Assembly: GCA_035533095.1 (NCBI GenBank)
Contig: DATLUM010000075.1
Coordinates: forward strand, 1 to 64,000
DNA from: Acidimicrobiales bacterium
Lineage (GTDB): Bacteria > Actinomycetota > Acidimicrobiia > Acidimicrobiales > Palsa-688
Direction of reading: 5' to 3'
DNA: 64,000 nt
Below the pieces are notes generated by a model that was not told where the DNA came from, did not search any database, and was given only the letters and a program-made list of their open reading frames with translations. This document shows positions 1-60,376 of the stretch, in pieces. The position numbers were made by a program, and so were the translations under genes. Position 1 is the first letter of the stretch, and each line of letters opens with the position of its first letter.

Positions 1-538
<538 letters not shown>

Positions 539-607
539 ACATTTTTGTTCGTGCTCGCTATGGAACGCTCAAAGGACCGGGCCTATACGGCCCGCCATGA
601 GCACGTT

Positions 608-725
608 TTCCGGTGGCCATAGCGGCGGAGTCACACCCGTTCCCATCCCGAACACGGCAGTTAAGCCCGCCAGCGCCGATGGTACTTGGGGGGTTTCCCC
701 CTGGGAGAGTAGGACGTCGCCGGAA
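608..725 (+). rRNA. rrf: 5S ribosomal RNA
   Basis: About 118 nt, lying about 70 nt after the 23S gene. The ends pair: TTCCGG at 608-613 with CCGGAA at 720-725. The conserved internal blocks CCCGTTCCCATCCCGAACAC and GGGAGAGTAGG are present. It is the last gene of this rRNA operon, and a terminator follows directly. The ends are accurate to a few bases. Confidence 0.95.
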
Positions 726-46408: not shown

Positions 46409-47434
46409 TCAGCCGAGCGACTCGCGCAGGGCCTCCTGCGCCGGGTGTGCCTGGATGACGTGCCGCAACCCCTGCGCAGTCGCCGAGAGGTAGCGCCGGG
46501 TCGTCTCGAGGCTGGCGTGGCCGAGCAGCTCCTGCAGTTCGACGACGTCGGCGCCGGCTTCGAGCGCCGAGGTCGCGAAGGTGTGACGCAACGCGTGGAC
46601 GAGAGCGCCGGCGGGCACCTGGGCTCGCACACCGGCGCGCACGTAGAGCTTCTCGACGAGGTAGCGGATCTGGTCGACGCTCAACCGCCGTCCGCGTACG
46701 TCGACGAACAGCGGGGCCGAGGGATGGTCGAGATCCTCTTTGGGGAAAAGAGCGGCCCGCTCGCGCAGGTACGCCTCCAGCACCCCGTCGAGCGTCGCGG
46801 TGACCGGGATGGGCCGCGCCTTACCGCCCTTGCCCTTCACTTCCATCCGCCGCGCGCCGACCTCGCCCACCAACGACCCCACGTTCAGCCCGCAAGCCTC
46901 CGCCTCGCGTATCCCCGTCACGCAGAAGGTCGCGATCACTGCCAGGTCTCGCGCGGGCCACGGGTTGCGCGAACGAGGATCGGGTTCTGCGGCGGTCCGG
47001 ATCAACCGCGTTATCGCGCCCGGGGCACGGATCGAGCGGGGCAGTACGGTCGGGGTCTTGGGTTTCGGAATCGCCGCCATCGGGTTACCCTCCAGGACCC
47101 CCTCCGCCACGAGGAAGTCGAAGAAGCTCGACCAGGCAGAATGCGCCCGGCGCACCGATGCCGCGGCGTGGTCCGACGCCCATGAAGCGAACGCCGCGCG
47201 CAGCGCCGACCGCTCCAAGTGGGGGAGTTGCAAGTCGCCGTACTCGCCGATGCCCTCGAGGATCGCGAGCCTCCCGGCCACGCCCTGCACGTCGCGCCGG
47301 TAGGCCGTGAGCGTTGCCGGTGACGGCTTGGCCGCGCCCATGTGCACCAGCCACGCGTCGACGGCGTCGGTCACGTCCGACGATGCGTTGAGACGCCTTC
47401 GTGCGACGATCGGATTGGCGGGGGAGGGAGCCAC
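46409..47434 (-). CDS. Tyrosine recombinase, XerC/XerD-like
   Basis: 341 residues from GTG 47434. The core-binding domain covers about 20-125. The catalytic set is complete: R176 (TGIREAEA), a beta-hairpin lysine in EVKGKGGKARPIP (K202 or K205), H280 and R283 (HALRHTFAT), H306 (LLGHASLETT) and nucleophile Y315 (RRYLSAT). It is somewhat longer than most Xer proteins (about 300). A dif-like repeat lies 71 bp upstream of its start. In M. tuberculosis xerD follows pyrG-nudF; here that place has no recombinase. A role in chromosome dimer resolution is inferred; a cassette integrase is the alternative. Confidence 0.9.
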   Translation of the reverse strand: MAPSPANPIVARRRLNASSDVTDAVDAWLVHMGAAKPSPATLTAYRRDVQGVAGRLAILEGIGEYGDLQLPHLERSALRAAFASWASDHAAASVRRAHSAWSSFFDFLVAEGVLEGNPMAAIPKPKTPTVLPRSIRAPGAITRLIRTAAEPDPRSRNPWPARDLAVIATFCVTGIREAEACGLNVGSLVGEVGARRMEVKGKGGKARPIPVTATLDGVLEAYLRERAALFPKEDLDHPSAPLFVDVRGRRLSVDQIRYLVEKLYVRAGVRAQVPAGALVHALRHTFATSALEAGADVVELQELLGHASLETTRRYLSATAQGLRHVIQAHPAQEALRESLG

Positions 47435-47444
47435 TGCCCGACCC

Positions 47445-47450
47445 AGGCTA
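47445..47450 (-). promoter_or_regulatory. Possible -10 element of the recombinase gene
   Basis: TAGCCT on the minus strand, 16 nt before GTG 47434. Confidence 0.4.
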
Positions 47451-47504
47451 AGACCCCGGCCCGGCGGGACGGTGGACCGGGCTCCCGGCTCGGTCTTTTC
47501 CTAT

Positions 47505-47532
47505 AGTCCGGATAATCACAGTTATCCGTAAC
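47505..47532. other. Candidate dif site (XerCD-type recombination site)
   Basis: A 28-bp element with the dif layout: an 11-bp left arm AGTCCGGATAA, a 6-bp centre TCACAG, and an 11-bp right arm TTATCCGTAAC. The inner CGGATAA/TTATCCG is a perfect 7-bp dyad. The inner ends ATAA and TTAT match the conserved inner ends of bacterial dif arms. It lies next to a Xer-type recombinase and at the point where gene direction flips. An operator for either flanking gene is the alternative reading. Confidence 0.55.
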
Positions 47533-47556
47533 TTTGCGAGGACGTCTTGGCGACTC

Positions 47557-47673
47557 CTAGGCCTCGGGCTTGCGGGCTTCGGCCTTCGCCTTGCGGACCC
47601 GAGCGTCGCGCTGCTTCTTGCGGCGAATCCGGTCGTGCTTCCAGCGGACGGTCGATCTAGCTCCTCGGCCCAT
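47557..47673 (-). CDS. Very small, highly basic protein (possible ribosomal component)
   Basis: 38 residues, ATG 47673 to TAG 47557, shorter than usual gene-finding limits. The sequence starts MGRGARSTVRWKHDRIRRKK and about 45 percent of residues are Arg or Lys. The MGRGARSTVRW start and the helical basic body look like a tiny ribosomal or RNA-binding protein. I cannot name a family with confidence. It lies between the dif-like site and the hydrolase gene. Confidence 0.65.
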   Translation of the reverse strand: MGRGARSTVRWKHDRIRRKKQRDARVRKAKAEARKPEA

Positions 47674-47684
47674 GGCGGCGCACC

Positions 47685-48365
47685 CTAGTCGCGCAGGAAG
47701 TCCATCGCCGCCTCGATGAAGCGGAAATCCTTAGGCGTCCCGAAGTGATCGGCGCCGGCGAGGGCGGCCAGGCGCGCGTCGGGCAGCGCCGCCATCAGCT
47801 TGTCCGCCGGCCCGGCGAAGTCGCGATCGCCCAGTACCACGAGGACCGGTACCGACACTCCGGCGAGGTCGTCTGGCACCAGAGGCTCGCGCGGGCGGCG
47901 GAGGCAGGCTGCGAGCGCTGCCGGGTCGTTGCCGGGGGCTTTGGCGAAGACGGCGAAGGCTTGCGCAACACCCGGGTCTCCATCTGACACCGAGCCCGTC
48001 TCGATGGCCCGGGCTGCGGCTTCGGGGTCGTCGTGGCGGAAGATGTTGTCGCCGACTCCCCCGACGACGATCTTGCGGAACCTGCCAGGCTGGTCCGCCG
48101 CAACCCTGAGCAGCAGCTGGCCGCCCAGGCTGAAGCCGATCGCGTCGACCTGACCGTCGCCTGGCAAAGCCGCCGCGACCGCCGCCTCCATCCCGATGTA
48201 GGCCTCGGGGTCGTGGGGCTTGTCCGCGCTGCCGTGACCGGGAAGGTCGAACCCGATCACCTCGCGGCCCTCGTCGGCGAGGATGTCCACCCAGCCCGGT
48301 TCCCGCCAGTTGCGCTCGTACGACGACGCAAACCCGTGGACGAGCAACACCGGTGGAAGAGCCAT
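47685..48365 (-). CDS. Alpha/beta hydrolase
   Basis: 226 residues from ATG 48365. Oxyanion motif VLLVHGFASSYERNW, nucleophile elbow IGFSLGGQ, acid in VLVVLGDRDFAGPA and catalytic histidine in LAGADHFGTPKDF. Substrate unknown; esterase or lipase type. TACGTT at 48377-48372 lies 12 nt upstream and selects this start over ATG 48380. Confidence 0.88.
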   Translation of the reverse strand: MALPPVLLVHGFASSYERNWREPGWVDILADEGREVIGFDLPGHGSADKPHDPEAYIGMEAAVAAALPGDGQVDAIGFSLGGQLLLRVAADQPGRFRKIVVGGVGDNIFRHDDPEAAARAIETGSVSDGDPGVAQAFAVFAKAPGNDPAALAACLRRPREPLVPDDLAGVSVPVLVVLGDRDFAGPADKLMAALPDARLAALAGADHFGTPKDFRFIEAAMDFLRD

Positions 48366-52553: not shown

Positions 52554-53351
52554 CTATTCGAAGCGCGGGATGAGCGCCTCCACGCTCGCAACGTAGGCCT
52601 GGGTATCGGGGAAGATGCCGTAGGTGCCGAGGTTCAGCGGGCCCTCGTAGTACGCGGCGATGGTGGCACAGCGGTTGTTCCCCTCCACGCCGGCGAGGTA
52701 GGCGAGGAAGGCAGCCGACATCCGGATGTTGTCGTTGACCGAGTTGATGTTCATCGGCATCCCGATCAACGTGCCGCTGATGAAGCTCGCGGTGCCCGGC
52801 ATGATCTGGCCGGCACCGATCGCACCCGTCGACGACACGACGCCCTGCTGCCACCCCGATTCCTGCCAGGCGATCGCCTCGAGGAGCGGCAGGGAGACGT
52901 TGTAGTGGCGGGACCACTTGATGAACAGCGGCTGGAGAGCCAGCCGATCAGGTGACTGCCGGAGCAGGTCCGGTAGGACCCCCCACGTCCCGGGAGCGCC
53001 CGAGGAGGACATCGTGGCGCAAAACGACCACGGGTTCTCAGTCGTAGCGGAGGCGGTGGTAACCGCCGGAGTGGATCCGGCCGTCGAACCCGTCGTGGGA
53101 ATCTGCAGCTGGCGACCGATGAGGAGCAGGTCGCTCGCCCTCATGTTGTTCGCCGCGGCCAGCTGGTTGACGGTTATCCCGTTGGCTCGGGCGATCGCCC
53201 ACAGCGAATCGCCGGCCTTGACCACGTAGGAATGCCCGCTGCCGTAGGCGGCGGCGCCGGCCGCCAAGAGCACCCCGAGGGTCAGCAGCGACGCCCCCTT
53301 GCGCAAGAAACCTAAAGCCCGGGACGGCCCGATCAAGAATTTGGACGGCAT
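52554..53351 (-). CDS. Secreted LysM lytic transglycosylase
   Basis: 265 residues. A signal-type helix at about 17-37 (KGASLLTLGVLLAAGAAAYG), a LysM domain at about 40-86 (SYVVKAGDSLWAIARANGIT, LLLIGRQLQIP), a Thr/Ser linker, then an SLT-like domain with catalytic glutamate in EAIAWQESGWQQGVVS and the motif GAIGAGQIMPGTASFI. It would bind and cut peptidoglycan outside the membrane. No ydaO riboswitch is seen in the short upstream region. Confidence 0.9.
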   Translation of the reverse strand: MPSKFLIGPSRALGFLRKGASLLTLGVLLAAGAAAYGSGHSYVVKAGDSLWAIARANGITVNQLAAANNMRASDLLLIGRQLQIPTTGSTAGSTPAVTTASATTENPWSFCATMSSSGAPGTWGVLPDLLRQSPDRLALQPLFIKWSRHYNVSLPLLEAIAWQESGWQQGVVSSTGAIGAGQIMPGTASFISGTLIGMPMNINSVNDNIRMSAAFLAYLAGVEGNNRCATIAAYYEGPLNLGTYGIFPDTQAYVASVEALIPRFE

Positions 53352-53465
53352 GGATCAAGGAAGGTCCAATCCCTCCGCCCGCGGCCGTTGAACTTACAAC
53401 ATCAACAGCAGCCTCATCAACCCCTCGTTTAACAAACTCGGCCGCTCGCAGCCTCGACTTGAGCG

Positions 53466-55178
53466 TCAGATCCCGGCTCTCTCCTGGCGGCGCTGGGCTG
53501 CCCTGCGCTCCCCTTGCAGCCTCTCGAGGCCCTCGTCCTCGTAGTCGGCGAGGTCCACATGGGTCATCATCTCTGCGATCACCCGGTGCCCGGCTTTCTC
53601 CGCGATCAACCGGTGCATCTGCTGGCACACTTTCCGGTACTCCGGGTGTCCCTGGGGGGTGGTGCGCAACTCGAGGACGTGCATCGCCTCGCGGGCATTG
53701 AACTGCATCGCGTAGCGGATCCGGAAAGCCAGGGCCACCGCGTACGCCGCCTGAGTGGCCCCGAAACGACCGGCGAGCGCTGCGTGCAGCCCGGCCGATC
53801 GCTCCATCGCACCCGCGAACGTCCCCGACGCGCCTGCGTCCACGACCGATTGCGGCATGGTGTAGCCGTTGGCGGGGGTCAGGTCCTGCCACTCCACGGT
53901 TAGCAGGCGGTGCCTCTGCAGGTCCCGGAAGGCGCCATAGTCCGATACCACGTCGAAGCGGTACCCGGTTCGCTCCAACGCCCTGCCCGGACGGTGGCGG
54001 CGATTGGCCCGCTCCCCCACGTACGAGCGGACCACCCGCGCCCGATCCTCGTTGCTCATGGAGGCGACGCGCTCCTCCACCTTGTGCTCTGGAAGGCTCG
54101 TGTAGGGATAGAGCATCGCCGCGACGAGCTTCACCTCGGCTTCGGGATCCCAGTCGACGAGAGAAACCTCGGGGTCTCCGCCTAGCACCGGGTCCGCGTT
54201 GGTTCCCGCCTCACCGAAGAGACTCGAGACCACATCCGCCATCGCTGCCGATGTCGACTCGAGATAGTCGGAGTGTGCGACACCGCGATCGTCGACGTCG
54301 ACCCTCTTCACCCAGGACGGGATCACCTTTCTCAGCTCCGTCAGTATGAGGTCGGCGTACGACCTGGCCTCGGGCAGTGGATGCGCCCTCATGCGGATCA
54401 GAAGCGACTCGTACGCCTGGCCACTCGCGTAGATCCCGAGGTTGGACGTGGCGCCGGCAGGTAGGACCCCCCGCAGCGCGTCGAAGGCCTTGGCCCGGAC
54501 TGATTGTCTCCACGCAAAGTCCGAGTCGTCGGGCGTCTTCGGGTGTCGATCGGCGAACCAACCCTGCATGACGGGTAGCAGCTCGGCGTAGGTGTCGAAC
54601 AGGCGGTCCATGTCGCCGATGTACCTGGCGCCGAGGGGCGATTCGAGGATCCCGGGGTCTCGGTAGTAGCGGTACCGGCCGTTCGGGAGCCGGCTGTCGT
54701 AGGCTACGTAGCGGGTCGACTTCTCCATGTAGGACATGAGCCGGCCCCACTCGAGCACCTTCGTGAGCACGTTCGACGCCTGCTCGCACGCCAGGTGCAC
54801 CCCGCCGAGCTGCGCCACCGAGTCGTCTCCGTACTCGAAGAACACCCGGTCGTAGAGCTGTTCCGCCCTGGCTAGCCCGACCGTCGCGTCGACGCCCTGG
54901 TCGCCGGTGATGTCGAGGTCGCCGACGAACTCGTCGAGAAAGAGCCGGCGGAGGCTTTTCGCTGAGCGGGAGTACCTGGCGAAGAGGGCGCCCTTGACGA
55001 CCTCGGGCAGGTTGACCAGGGCGAATACCGGTCCGTCGAGGTTCGTGAAGTACCGGCGGAGGATCTCCGCTTCGTCGTCCGTCCACGCCTCGACGGCGTA
55101 TATGCCGGTGTCCAGGTACCCCATCGCGGTGGCCCAGCCTACGGGTGGCGCGCCCGGCGCGTGTTGGATGGTGGTCAC
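53466..55178 (-). CDS. Duplicated ThyX-like protein
   Basis: About 570 residues from GTG 55178 (ATG 55124 also possible). Two ThyX-type halves in tandem. The N-terminal half has RVFFEYGDDSVAQLGGVHLA, ASNVLTKVLEWGRLMSYMEK and STRYV. The C-terminal half has RDLQRHRLLTVEWQDL, GYTMPQSVVDAGA and RYAMQFNAREAMHVLELRTT. A canonical ThyX has about 230 residues and one RHRxxSxNxxSxRY motif; here the RHR part is in one half and the STRY part in the other. Such long proteins are usually annotated as FAD-dependent thymidylate synthase, but activity is unproven. It follows helY by 44 bp. Confidence 0.85.
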   Translation of the reverse strand: MTTIQHAPGAPPVGWATAMGYLDTGIYAVEAWTDDEAEILRRYFTNLDGPVFALVNLPEVVKGALFARYSRSAKSLRRLFLDEFVGDLDITGDQGVDATVGLARAEQLYDRVFFEYGDDSVAQLGGVHLACEQASNVLTKVLEWGRLMSYMEKSTRYVAYDSRLPNGRYRYYRDPGILESPLGARYIGDMDRLFDTYAELLPVMQGWFADRHPKTPDDSDFAWRQSVRAKAFDALRGVLPAGATSNLGIYASGQAYESLLIRMRAHPLPEARSYADLILTELRKVIPSWVKRVDVDDRGVAHSDYLESTSAAMADVVSSLFGEAGTNADPVLGGDPEVSLVDWDPEAEVKLVAAMLYPYTSLPEHKVEERVASMSNEDRARVVRSYVGERANRRHRPGRALERTGYRFDVVSDYGAFRDLQRHRLLTVEWQDLTPANGYTMPQSVVDAGASGTFAGAMERSAGLHAALAGRFGATQAAYAVALAFRIRYAMQFNAREAMHVLELRTTPQGHPEYRKVCQQMHRLIAEKAGHRVIAEMMTHVDLADYEDEGLERLQGERRAAQRRQERAGI

Positions 55179-57889: not shown

Positions 57890-58672
57890 CTACTTCTTGA
57901 GCAGGCGGCCGATGACAATCGACGCCTCGTAGAACACGAGCATCGGGACAGCCATCGCGATGAACGAGAACGGGTCGCTGCTGGGTGTGATCACCGCTGC
58001 CACCAAGCAGATGACGACGATCGCAGGGCGCCGCCACCGCCTCCAGGTCGCGCTCGGGACCACACCGACCAACTCCAAGAAGACGACGACGAGGGGATAC
58101 ATGAACACGAGCCCGAAGATCATGCACATCGCGACGTACAGCGTGAAGTAACGCGTAGGGGAGAACAGGGGGACGACCCCCGTGCCGCTTACGTCGATGA
58201 GCCACGTGAGAGCCTTCGGGAACACCTCGATCGCGGTGGCCACCCCTCCGGCGAAGAGGATGACGGCGGCGCTGACGAAAGGCACTATGTAGCGCTTCTC
58301 GTTCTTGTACAGCCCAGGGGTGATGAAGCGCCAGAGCTGCCAGAACACCACCGGCGACGCGAGCGCGATGCCGCCGTAGACGCTCACCTTGAGCCGGGTG
58401 GTGAACCCTTCGAGAGGACCGCTGGTGACGAGGTTGCCGCTGGACACGTCCTTGGCCTTGTGGTGGGCGAGGAAGGCGTGATAGGGGTGCAGCATGAAGC
58501 GGATGGCTTCGTCGTAGAAGAACCATGCGACGATGGTCCCGACGGTGATCGCGACGATGGCGATGATCAGGCGATGGCGCATCTCCGCCAGATGCTCGAA
58601 CAGGGTCATTTTTCCCAGTTCGTCGTCAGCGGCGGCTTCGGCTGCCCCTTCCCGATCGTCGGTCATGGCCAC
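57890..58672 (-). CDS. tatC: Twin-arginine translocase subunit TatC
   Basis: 260 residues with six membrane helices. Signatures: MTLFEHLAEMRHRLIIAIVA, WQLWRFITPGLYKNEKRYIV and FVFMYPLVVV-like helix 4 region (GLVFMYPLVVVFLELVG). It binds twin-arginine signal peptides and forms the Tat channel with TatA/B. It lies 3 bp before helY and 23 bp after tatB. Confidence 0.96.
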   Translation of the reverse strand: MAMTDDREGAAEAAADDELGKMTLFEHLAEMRHRLIIAIVAITVGTIVAWFFYDEAIRFMLHPYHAFLAHHKAKDVSSGNLVTSGPLEGFTTRLKVSVYGGIALASPVVFWQLWRFITPGLYKNEKRYIVPFVSAAVILFAGGVATAIEVFPKALTWLIDVSGTGVVPLFSPTRYFTLYVAMCMIFGLVFMYPLVVVFLELVGVVPSATWRRWRRPAIVVICLVAAVITPSSDPFSFIAMAVPMLVFYEASIVIGRLLKK

Positions 58673-58695
58673 GACAGGCGAAACTCGGGCCGCCG

Positions 58696-59085
58696 CTAGT
58701 TGAGCGACGGGTCATCCGGGGCCGGGGGCACAAGAGCACCAGTGGCCGCGTCACCAACGCCGAGCGAGGGCGCATCGGGTTCGCCCGCGGTGTTCGTACT
58801 GGACGGTGGAACCGCCGTCACGGGGGCCGTGAACGTGGAGGTCACCGCTTCCCGCATGGAGCGACGGACATCCGGGATGCGAAACTCCCCTGCAGCTGAC
58901 TTGACCGCGTCCGTCGGGTCGGCCAGCGCCTCGCGGACCTCCTCCTGGAAGCTCGAGGACATCCTGCGTACCTGCGCCACGAAGCGGCCGAGGGTTCGCG
59001 CGGCCTGCGGGAGACGGTGAGGTCCGAGGACGATCAAGGCGATAACGCCCACGAGAAAGAGCTTCTCAGGGCTGAAGTTCAGCAC
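58696..59085 (-). CDS. tatB: Sec-independent translocase protein TatB/TatA
   Basis: 129 residues. One N-terminal membrane helix with the hinge (FSPEKLFLVGVIALIVLGPH then RLPQAARTLGRFVAQVR), an amphipathic helix, and a long Pro/Ser/Thr tail. Glu at position 7 and the GPxRLP motif favour TatB over TatA. No second tatA gene is nearby, so it could serve both roles. Confidence 0.88.
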   Translation of the reverse strand: MLNFSPEKLFLVGVIALIVLGPHRLPQAARTLGRFVAQVRRMSSSFQEEVREALADPTDAVKSAAGEFRIPDVRRSMREAVTSTFTAPVTAVPPSSTNTAGEPDAPSLGVGDAATGALVPPAPDDPSLN

Positions 59086-59111
59086 GCCGCGAGTGTAGTT
59101 GCGCTTGCCGC

Positions 59112-59276
59112 CTAGAGGGCGCGGCCACCCCGCACGTCCCCACGAGTCCGCACGCGCAGGGGGCGCATGGCGCTATGGAGCTCCGAGACGGATTTGTTCA
59201 ACCTGTGGACGCAAACCATCAGAGCCACGGCGCCGGCCCCGCCCACTCCGAGCGGGATCAGCCACAAGTCGCTCAA
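59112..59276 (-). CDS. Small single-span membrane protein
   Basis: 54 residues if started at TTG 59276, which overlaps the upstream stop as TTGA. One membrane helix (LIPLGVGGAGAVALMVCVHR) is followed by an amphipathic segment (LNKSVSELHSAMRPLR) and a basic end. An ATG at 59327 would overlap the upstream gene by 55 bp. It sits in line with tatB-tatC, so it may be co-expressed with them. Not recognised. Confidence 0.55.
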   Translation of the reverse strand: MSDLWLIPLGVGGAGAVALMVCVHRLNKSVSELHSAMRPLRVRTRGDVRGGRAL

Positions 59277-59620
59277 CGACCCGATCCGGTCACACTGTCG
59301 CTCCCCGCTACGAGCTTCTCCATCCACCGATCATCCTCCAAGGCGAGGTGGAATGCCAGTAAGTCGTCGTGAGTGATCGGGGGTCCCACCTTCTGCTCGT
59401 GCAGCTCGGCCGGCAAGGACCACATGACGATCTCGCAGCCGGCGGCGCTCAACGCTCCGAATACCCTCTCACCAGCTTCTTTGGTGGTTATGAGCCGGCA
59501 ATCGGGGCACTGGAAGGAGTAAGTGGCGGCGGCATTCGAGGCGCAGACCTGGATCTGTACGTCCGCAATGTCCAGTTCGACGTCACCGCAAGCAGCGCAT
59601 GTGGCCCTGACGATCGCCAC
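59273..59620 (-). CDS. Zinc-ribbon protein of unknown function
   Basis: 115 residues from GTG 59620, with GGAGG 4 nt upstream. Two cysteine pairs (RATCAACGDVELDIADVQI and YSFQCPDCRLITTKEAGERV) form a zinc ribbon. The end (LPAELHEQKVGPPITHDDLL, AFHLALEDDRWMEKLV) is a helical module common in actinobacteria. Role unknown. The longer frame up to 59914 has an unconserved start and overlaps the divergent gene. Confidence 0.78.
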   Translation of the reverse strand: MAIVRATCAACGDVELDIADVQIQVCASNAAATYSFQCPDCRLITTKEAGERVFGALSAAGCEIVMWSLPAELHEQKVGPPITHDDLLAFHLALEDDRWMEKLVAGSDSVTGSGR

Positions 59621-59686
59621 GAGAGCCTCCTTTGAGCGGATTTCGCTCCATTGCCTATATCGGCGCCGCTGGGGCAACCTTGAGCG

Positions 59687-60376
59687 GTGAGTCGGCGCCC
59701 GATCGCCTTCGCCCACCGGGGAGCCAGGGCGGTCAGGCGGGAGAACACCATCGACGCCTTCCAGCACGCCCTCGTGCTCGGCGCGACGGGACTCGAGAGC
59801 GACGTGTGGATCACGGCCGACGGCCAGGCGGTGCTCGACCACGACGGGGTCACCGGGCCGCCCTGGCGCCGGCGGCCGCTGTCGGCTCAGGAGCGGCGGG
59901 CGCTCCCGTCCCACATCCCCACGCTCGAGCAGCTCTACGGGTCGTGTGGAACCGACTTCGAGCTGTCGCTCGACATCAAGGACCCGGCTTCCCTCGGTGA
60001 GACCCTTCGGGTCGCCAAGGCCTTCGATGCGGCCGAGCGCCTGTGGATCTGCGAGCCCGTAATCGCGCGACTGCGGTCATGGGCGCCTTTGGCAGGAGGC
60101 GCCCGGCTCGTGAACTCGACTCACCTCGACGACATGCCGGAGGGCTTCGCCGTCCGCCTGGAAGAACTCCGCGCCATCGGTGTCGGCGCGCTCAACCTCC
60201 ACGGCAGCGAATGGAACTCGCAACGCGTCGCCGAAGCCCACGATGCCGGCCTGCTCGCATTCGGTTGGGACGCCCAGGACGACCGACACATACGCCGTCT
60301 GGTCTCACTGGGACTCGACGGCATCTACTCCGACCATGTCGACCGGCTCGTCCATGCGATAGCGACCGAAGGCTGA
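59687..60376 (+). CDS. Glycerophosphodiester phosphodiesterase
   Basis: 229 residues from GTG 59687. Catalytic segment IAFAHRGARAVRRENTIDAF (HRG...ENT), then GATGLESDVWITADGQAVLD and the ending IRRLVSLGLDGIYSDHVDRL. It would split glycerophosphodiesters to glycerol 3-phosphate and an alcohol. No signal peptide, so it acts inside the cell. It interrupts the minus-strand tat-paf block. Confidence 0.9.
   Translation: MSRRPIAFAHRGARAVRRENTIDAFQHALVLGATGLESDVWITADGQAVLDHDGVTGPPWRRRPLSAQERRALPSHIPTLEQLYGSCGTDFELSLDIKDPASLGETLRVAKAFDAAERLWICEPVIARLRSWAPLAGGARLVNSTHLDDMPEGFAVRLEELRAIGVGALNLHGSEWNSQRVAEAHDAGLLAFGWDAQDDRHIRRLVSLGLDGIYSDHVDRLVHAIATEG

Follow-up and report, generated by a model that had tools for sequence, protein, structure and literature searches.

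In the genome of a member of the Acidimicrobiales, a 28-bp element is very probably the dif site of the chromosome, and the adjoining gene very probably codes for the one Xer recombinase dedicated to it in this lineage; together they would have replaced XerCD and the canonical dif. Few bacterial systems are as conserved as XerCD/dif dimer resolution. XerC and XerD, the standard pair of proteins for separating doubled chromosomes, have apparently been lost in these little-studied actinobacteria, where one recombinase with its own DNA target is found instead. This reading is carried by the anatomy and conservation of the element, its position at the terminus as read from octamer polarity, the finding that neither XerCD nor canonical dif co-occurs with the recombinase, and the retention of the FtsK gamma domain. 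The source genome (G000) is a 3.44-Mb draft in 142 contigs. Its relatives include Acidiferrimicrobium (in a family that includes Acidiferrimicrobium sp. IK), which the NCBI taxonomy places in Acidimicrobiales, Acidimicrobiaceae. The window is the whole stretch of 64 kb that was analysed, and the features around the element are given in Table 1.

Table 1. Features at the predicted terminus (window coordinates).
Feature	Position	Strand	Remarks
Xer-type tyrosine recombinase P0001, 341 aa	46409..47434	-	Pfam Phage_integrase PF00589 and SAM-like N-terminal PF02899
Last KOPS-like GGGGGAG on the left	47420..47426	+	towards the site
Intergenic stretch, recombinase start to dif-like site	47435..47504	.	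probably carries the recombinase promoter
dif-like site	47505..47532	-	unique in genome, conserved 28-mer, octamer flip
First KOPS-like GGGGGAG on the right	48056..48062	-	back towards the site

On the plus strand the element reads AGTCCGGATAA-TCACAG-TTATCCGTAAC, and in the orientation of the recombinase GTTACGGATAA CTGTGA TTATCCGGACT. The inner arms are symmetric (CGGATAA/TTATCCG) and form a perfect 7-bp dyad, and 8 of 11 arm positions are complementary overall. The G+C content was 12/28 (43%) versus about 68% in the surrounding region. The element is thus 28 bp long, palindromic, non-coding, low in GC and present in one copy, with two 11-bp arms around a 6-bp centre, which are features used for recognising dif-type sites (PMC2731167). 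The first-pass annotation had described this 11-6-11 layout with its perfect dyad, and we found it as described; allowing up to 3 mismatches, the source genome held no copy besides the element itself. Inner 7-bp dyads with a 6-bp centre occur 12 times in the window, and only the one in the element has the ATAA/TTAT core. The dyad was therefore discarded as stand-alone evidence, and the element stands above chance because it is conserved across genomes. A strongly basic ORF of 38 aa (MGRGARSTVRWKHDRIRRKKQRDARVRKAKAEARKPEA; window 47557-47673, minus strand) adjoins the site; it had no Pfam match and is possibly a small ribosomal protein.

One copy of TTACGGATAACTGTGATTATCCGGA was detected in each of ten family genomes with up to 3 mismatches. 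When ten genomes were aligned, the 28 bp were 87% identical versus 30-31% for the 60-bp flanks. The conserved 28-mer was present in 13 genomes of family f1, with a slightly different form in G013, G023 and G031; in these 13 genomes the consensus of the centre was CTGTGA, and its first C and last A were invariant. The arms differ by clade (CGGATAA, TCGATAA or TGCATAA), the 11-6-11 layout is common to all, and the clades defined by site form agree with the recombinase tree. Family f40 (G070, G179, G204, G116) has TGCATAA/GGCATAA arms, genus g13 (G012, G022) has AGTCTCGATAA-N6-TTATCGAGACT, and f41 (G071) has a degenerate form of the symmetric site. No site was found near the recombinase gene in G010 or G029. 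Wherever both lay on one contig, the site was always upstream of the gene and oriented like it, 80 bp to 12 kb off; the spacing across relatives ranged from tens of bp to 12 kb. The first-pass annotation had likened the arrangement to a lone recombinase sitting next to its site; such adjacency proved common but not required, the two being 0.7-12 kb apart in several relatives. In g13 (L029, L031) and G071 (L030), two dyads about 1.2-1.6 kb apart were seen upstream of the recombinase: the one nearer the gene, at 32-46 bp, is degenerate, and the other is perfect or nearly so. It looks as though an insertion had separated two sites.

The recombinase gene has a GTG start about 70 bp from the element. 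The catalytic residues R176, K202, H280, R283, H306 and Y315 were invariant across 23 relatives, which bears out the initial description of a tyrosine recombinase with all catalytic residues beside the element. The protein scored well below the NCBIfam cut-offs for XerC (187.6 bits versus 335), XerD (153 versus 330), XerS (71.2 versus 267) and XerA (117 versus 220), and judged by these sequence models it is none of the four. Orthologues in f1, f40 and f41 were 54-78% identical. In the recombinase tree the group was separate from XerC and XerD, with a support of 0.98-0.99 for the f1/f41/f40 clade and weak deep support; rooting the recombinase within XerC or XerD was rejected because the tree separates it from both, though with low deep support (0.68). 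The source genome gave 48 tyrosine-recombinase matches in all, many of them in rows of neighbouring genes on short contigs, and the rows on contigs C18, C86, C98, C102, C124 and C126 resemble RIT-type trios.

Whole-chromosome GC skew could not be computed because the genome is a draft. The local skew around the site was weak (left 0.015, right -0.020), and on the long contigs of relatives skew was weak and inconsistent. G018 and G006 showed no clear switch, and skew was set aside as terminus evidence. For these reasons octamer polarity was used as the terminus marker. All octamers were compared, without bias, for their occurrence towards and away from the site on five contigs. The top polar octamers were CGGGGGAG (145 towards, 26 away) and TGGGGGAG (84 and 7), consistent in 5/5 contigs. 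Leaving out one contig at a time selected the same octamer each time, and none of 300 sets of pseudo-sites attained its score. The polarity of the E. coli KOPS GGGNAGGG and the B. subtilis motif GAGAAGGG was not consistent, and both were rejected as the polar motif.

The KOPS-like octamer [CT]GGGGGAG points at the element from either side and flips there, and on the source contig 28 of 32 GGGGGAG are directed at the site. The change point was computed without the site position, the motif itself having been chosen with the site known. The flip interval in the source genome was 47419-48055 (636 bp), with the site (47518) inside. Consistently, the site fell inside the flip interval in G014 (52774-54324, site 52841), G006 (194199-198358, site 196039) and G018 (100748-109592, site 107043); the recombinase of G018, at 118956, is 12 kb off and outside the interval. 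In G071 the change point (345713-347119) was one motif beyond the candidate site near 340.6-341.9 kb, about 4-6 kb off. On ten further contigs, all outside the set from which the motif was selected, 75 of 84 octamers pointed towards the site (37/37 in f40), and the flip pattern recurs in about ten relatives. As a calibration, two XerCD relatives were treated likewise. The flip was at 2224979-2226894 in G037, whose canonical dif lies at 2225823 (50/51 towards), and at 57966-59704 in G003, whose canonical dif lies at 59209 (79/93 towards). Polar octamers thus converge on the 28-bp element as expected of a dif-type site at the terminus, in support of the terminus that the first-pass annotation had proposed, and [CT]GGGGGAG probably acts as the KOPS of this order. 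The polar octamer also offers a way to find termini in drafts whose GC skew is too weak.

Two other local features had been pointed out at the outset. The switch of gene direction, described as sharp, is real but softer than stated: by a crude gene caller 24/33 genes left of the site were on plus and 11/16 right of it on minus, and the switch was best placed at 44-47.5 kb in the window. An rRNA operon so near a terminus is unusual and had been held against this location. The operon is indeed there: the 23S end and the 5S rRNA gene occupy window 1-725 and point towards the inferred terminus, which is about 47 kb away. The relative G014 (C1, L116) has the same arrangement, and its 23S match contains about 1.2 kb of extra sequence, possibly an intron.

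To place the recombinase against XerCD, both were looked for in 397 genomes of the order, with a threshold of E<=1e-65 for XerC/XerD and of at least 340 bits for a true orthologue of the recombinase. True orthologues were found in 19 genomes, in part of f1, in f40 and in f41. XerC/XerD was detected in 325 of the 397 genomes and in 0/19 of those with a true orthologue, and f1 was cleanly split between single-Xer and XerCD genomes. In the source genome, which was searched for other Xer genes, no XerD candidate exceeded 188 bits, and neither a canonical XerC or XerD nor an XerCD pair was found. The canonical dif pattern ATAAN6TTATGTNAA, with the XerD arm TTATGTNAA, occurred once each in 9 of 21 XerCD genomes (six of the nine in f1) and in none of the 19 single-Xer genomes (G000 and 18 others); as the other 12 XerCD genomes gave no hit either, its absence counts only jointly with the other lines. 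FtsK with a gamma domain was found in most of the single-Xer genomes searched, and its sequence there hardly differs from that of XerCD relatives; the drafts G009, G022 and G023 gave no match. The suspected single-recombinase system is thus supported by the absence of XerC, XerD and canonical dif wherever the recombinase is present. With one Xer, no XerCD, a cognate symmetric site at the terminus, and FtsK, it falls into the functional class of single-recombinase Xer systems.

It could be argued that this is merely an accessory Xer and that an undetected, divergent XerC/XerD pair resolves dimers at another dif. The genomes are drafts, and divergent systems such as XerL have been overlooked before (PMC9765430). 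However, the identical search that found XerD-type proteins in 325 of 397 genomes found none beside an orthologue, and in G014 (97% complete) and G009 no more than two proteins give any match to P0001. The canonical dif is absent, and the terminus octamers aim at the new site. We therefore regard this explanation as very unlikely. Among the 48 tyrosine-recombinase matches, another recombinase could in principle share dimer resolution.

In the rpoB tree the single-Xer genomes of f1 form one clade with the XerCD genera outside, which indicates that the trait is inherited, and f40 and f41 stand on separate branches. The tree thus implies a replacement at least once in f1, plus repeats or transfer across families. 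Inheritance along the rpoB clade also speaks against a mobile-element integrase with the 28-bp element as its attachment site. Such an integrase would suit a genome rich in tyrosine recombinases, and G002 (L215, L217) carries several copies of a distant relative (about 44%) beside its own canonical XerD, with a palindrome just upstream. Against this, the site is single in each genome, so that there is no attL/attR pair, and the octamers reverse direction at the site, also where the gene is 12 kb off. We consider an integrase less likely still. Hardly credible is a role of the palindrome as an operator for control of the gene by its own product or another protein. The distance to the start codon is 70 bp here and at most about 125 bp in G004 and G007, but the site in G001, G006, G009, G014 and G018 is 1.9 to 12 kb away with its sequence nearly unchanged, and the 11-6-11 layout and terminus position are features of dif; autoregulation could coexist with the dif role.

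If the element is the dif site, FtsK would load on [CT]GGGGGAG and be steered along both replichores to the element. At the division septum the two site copies of a chromosome dimer would be brought together, and a protomer of the one recombinase would sit on each of the four near-identical half-sites CGGATAA, two to a site. Activated by FtsK, the recombinase would cleave the sites, and strand exchange across the 6-bp centre would resolve the dimer into two monomers. The arms are nearly symmetric, so the direction would have to come from the asymmetric centre (CTGTGA) and the outer arm bases. Counting against the dif reading are the draft state of nearly all the genomes, the octamer offset in G071, the recombinase genes of G010 and G029 with no site nearby, the skew of G018 and G006 with its lack of a clear switch, and the rRNA operon 47 kb away, although a relative shares it.

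Family f17 may be an intermediate or separate case. A 42% relative of the recombinase is probably its only Xer, with the gene away from the site, and most f17 genomes have no canonical XerD. A site GTGCTGCATAA-TGACGS-TTATGTCTGAT occurs once per genome in 8/8 (e.g. L345, L346, L357), and in G135 two octamer motifs on each side aim at it. In G166 and G294 the octamer keeps one direction past the recombinase gene, which shows that the gene is not at dif there. This family is possibly a second single-Xer case, and it was left out of the core claim because its arms are asymmetric and seem to resemble canonical dif more closely.

Distant relatives of the recombinase (about 36-48%) were found in Saccharopolyspora, Actinopolyspora, Actinoplanes, Stackebrandtia, Mycobacterium gordonae and others. 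In Mycobacterium gordonae (L234) a palindromic site TTCATGCATAA-CAGTTA-TTATGCATGAA is located at -33 from the gene, and in Actinoplanes (L230) ATAATGCATAA-TGTGTC-TTATGCATGGG is directly upstream. A palindrome of the TGCATAA-N6-TTATGCA type was seen within 90 bp upstream in L234, L230 and L215. These mobile-looking relatives with an upstream palindrome suggest that the system originated as a mobile module that was later domesticated. Tentatively, and with somewhat less than even confidence, we propose that a mobile recombinase and its palindrome were domesticated and ousted XerCD/dif more than once in the order, that FtsK and the octamers stayed unchanged, and that the site co-evolved (TGCATAA, TCGATAA, CGGATAA). 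Because close relatives in the same family keep XerCD and mobile-looking relatives exist, the replacement can be traced almost stepwise.

Kono et al. reported an XerCD-type dif in 66/66 single-chromosome Actinobacteria examined (PMC3025954). In the open-licence literature we found no papers joining chromosome dimer resolution and Acidimicrobi-, and no report of a single-recombinase Xer system in Actinomycetota; the search being limited to open-licence papers, novelty is likely rather than proven. If our reading is true, this is a further single-recombinase system, and the first known to us in Actinomycetota.

The XerCD/dif system of other Acidimicrobiales shares with this one a near-identical FtsK gamma domain, the polar octamer, a dif at the flip and the 11-6-11 layout. 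It differs in having two recombinases, genes off the site, and an asymmetric site with the TTATGTNAA XerD arm. In functional terms, and by analogy, the present system may be grouped with XerS/difSL, XerH/difH, XerA/dif and XerL/dif (PMC5357621, PMC2731167, PMC9765430). XerH/difH of Campylobacter, Helicobacter and relatives likewise has one recombinase, an inverted repeat with a 6-bp centre and a position at the terminus, often adjacent to the gene (PMC2731167), but the site sequence and the phylum differ and the recombinase lineage is apparently another: an XerH profile (PDB sequence) gave 76.8 bits versus 129.2 for E. coli XerD, also weaker than XerA. XerS/difSL of streptococci and lactococci likewise has one recombinase, genetically linked to a terminus site, that works together with FtsK and with polar sequences in a fixed orientation (PMC3025954, PMC5357621); difSL, however, is an atypical 31-bp site versus 28 bp here, and the XerS model scored far below its cut-off. 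XerL/dif of Legionellales, in another phylum, also relies on one divergent recombinase that homology searches had missed (PMC9765430), a likeness drawn by description only. Archaeal XerA/dif shares one recombinase and a 28-bp palindromic site, but XerA is described as FtsK-independent (PMC5357621), whereas the FtsK gamma domain and KOPS-like octamers are found here. The recombinase of the Acidimicrobiales thus appears to be a lineage separate from XerS, XerA and probably XerH, and perhaps also from XerL.
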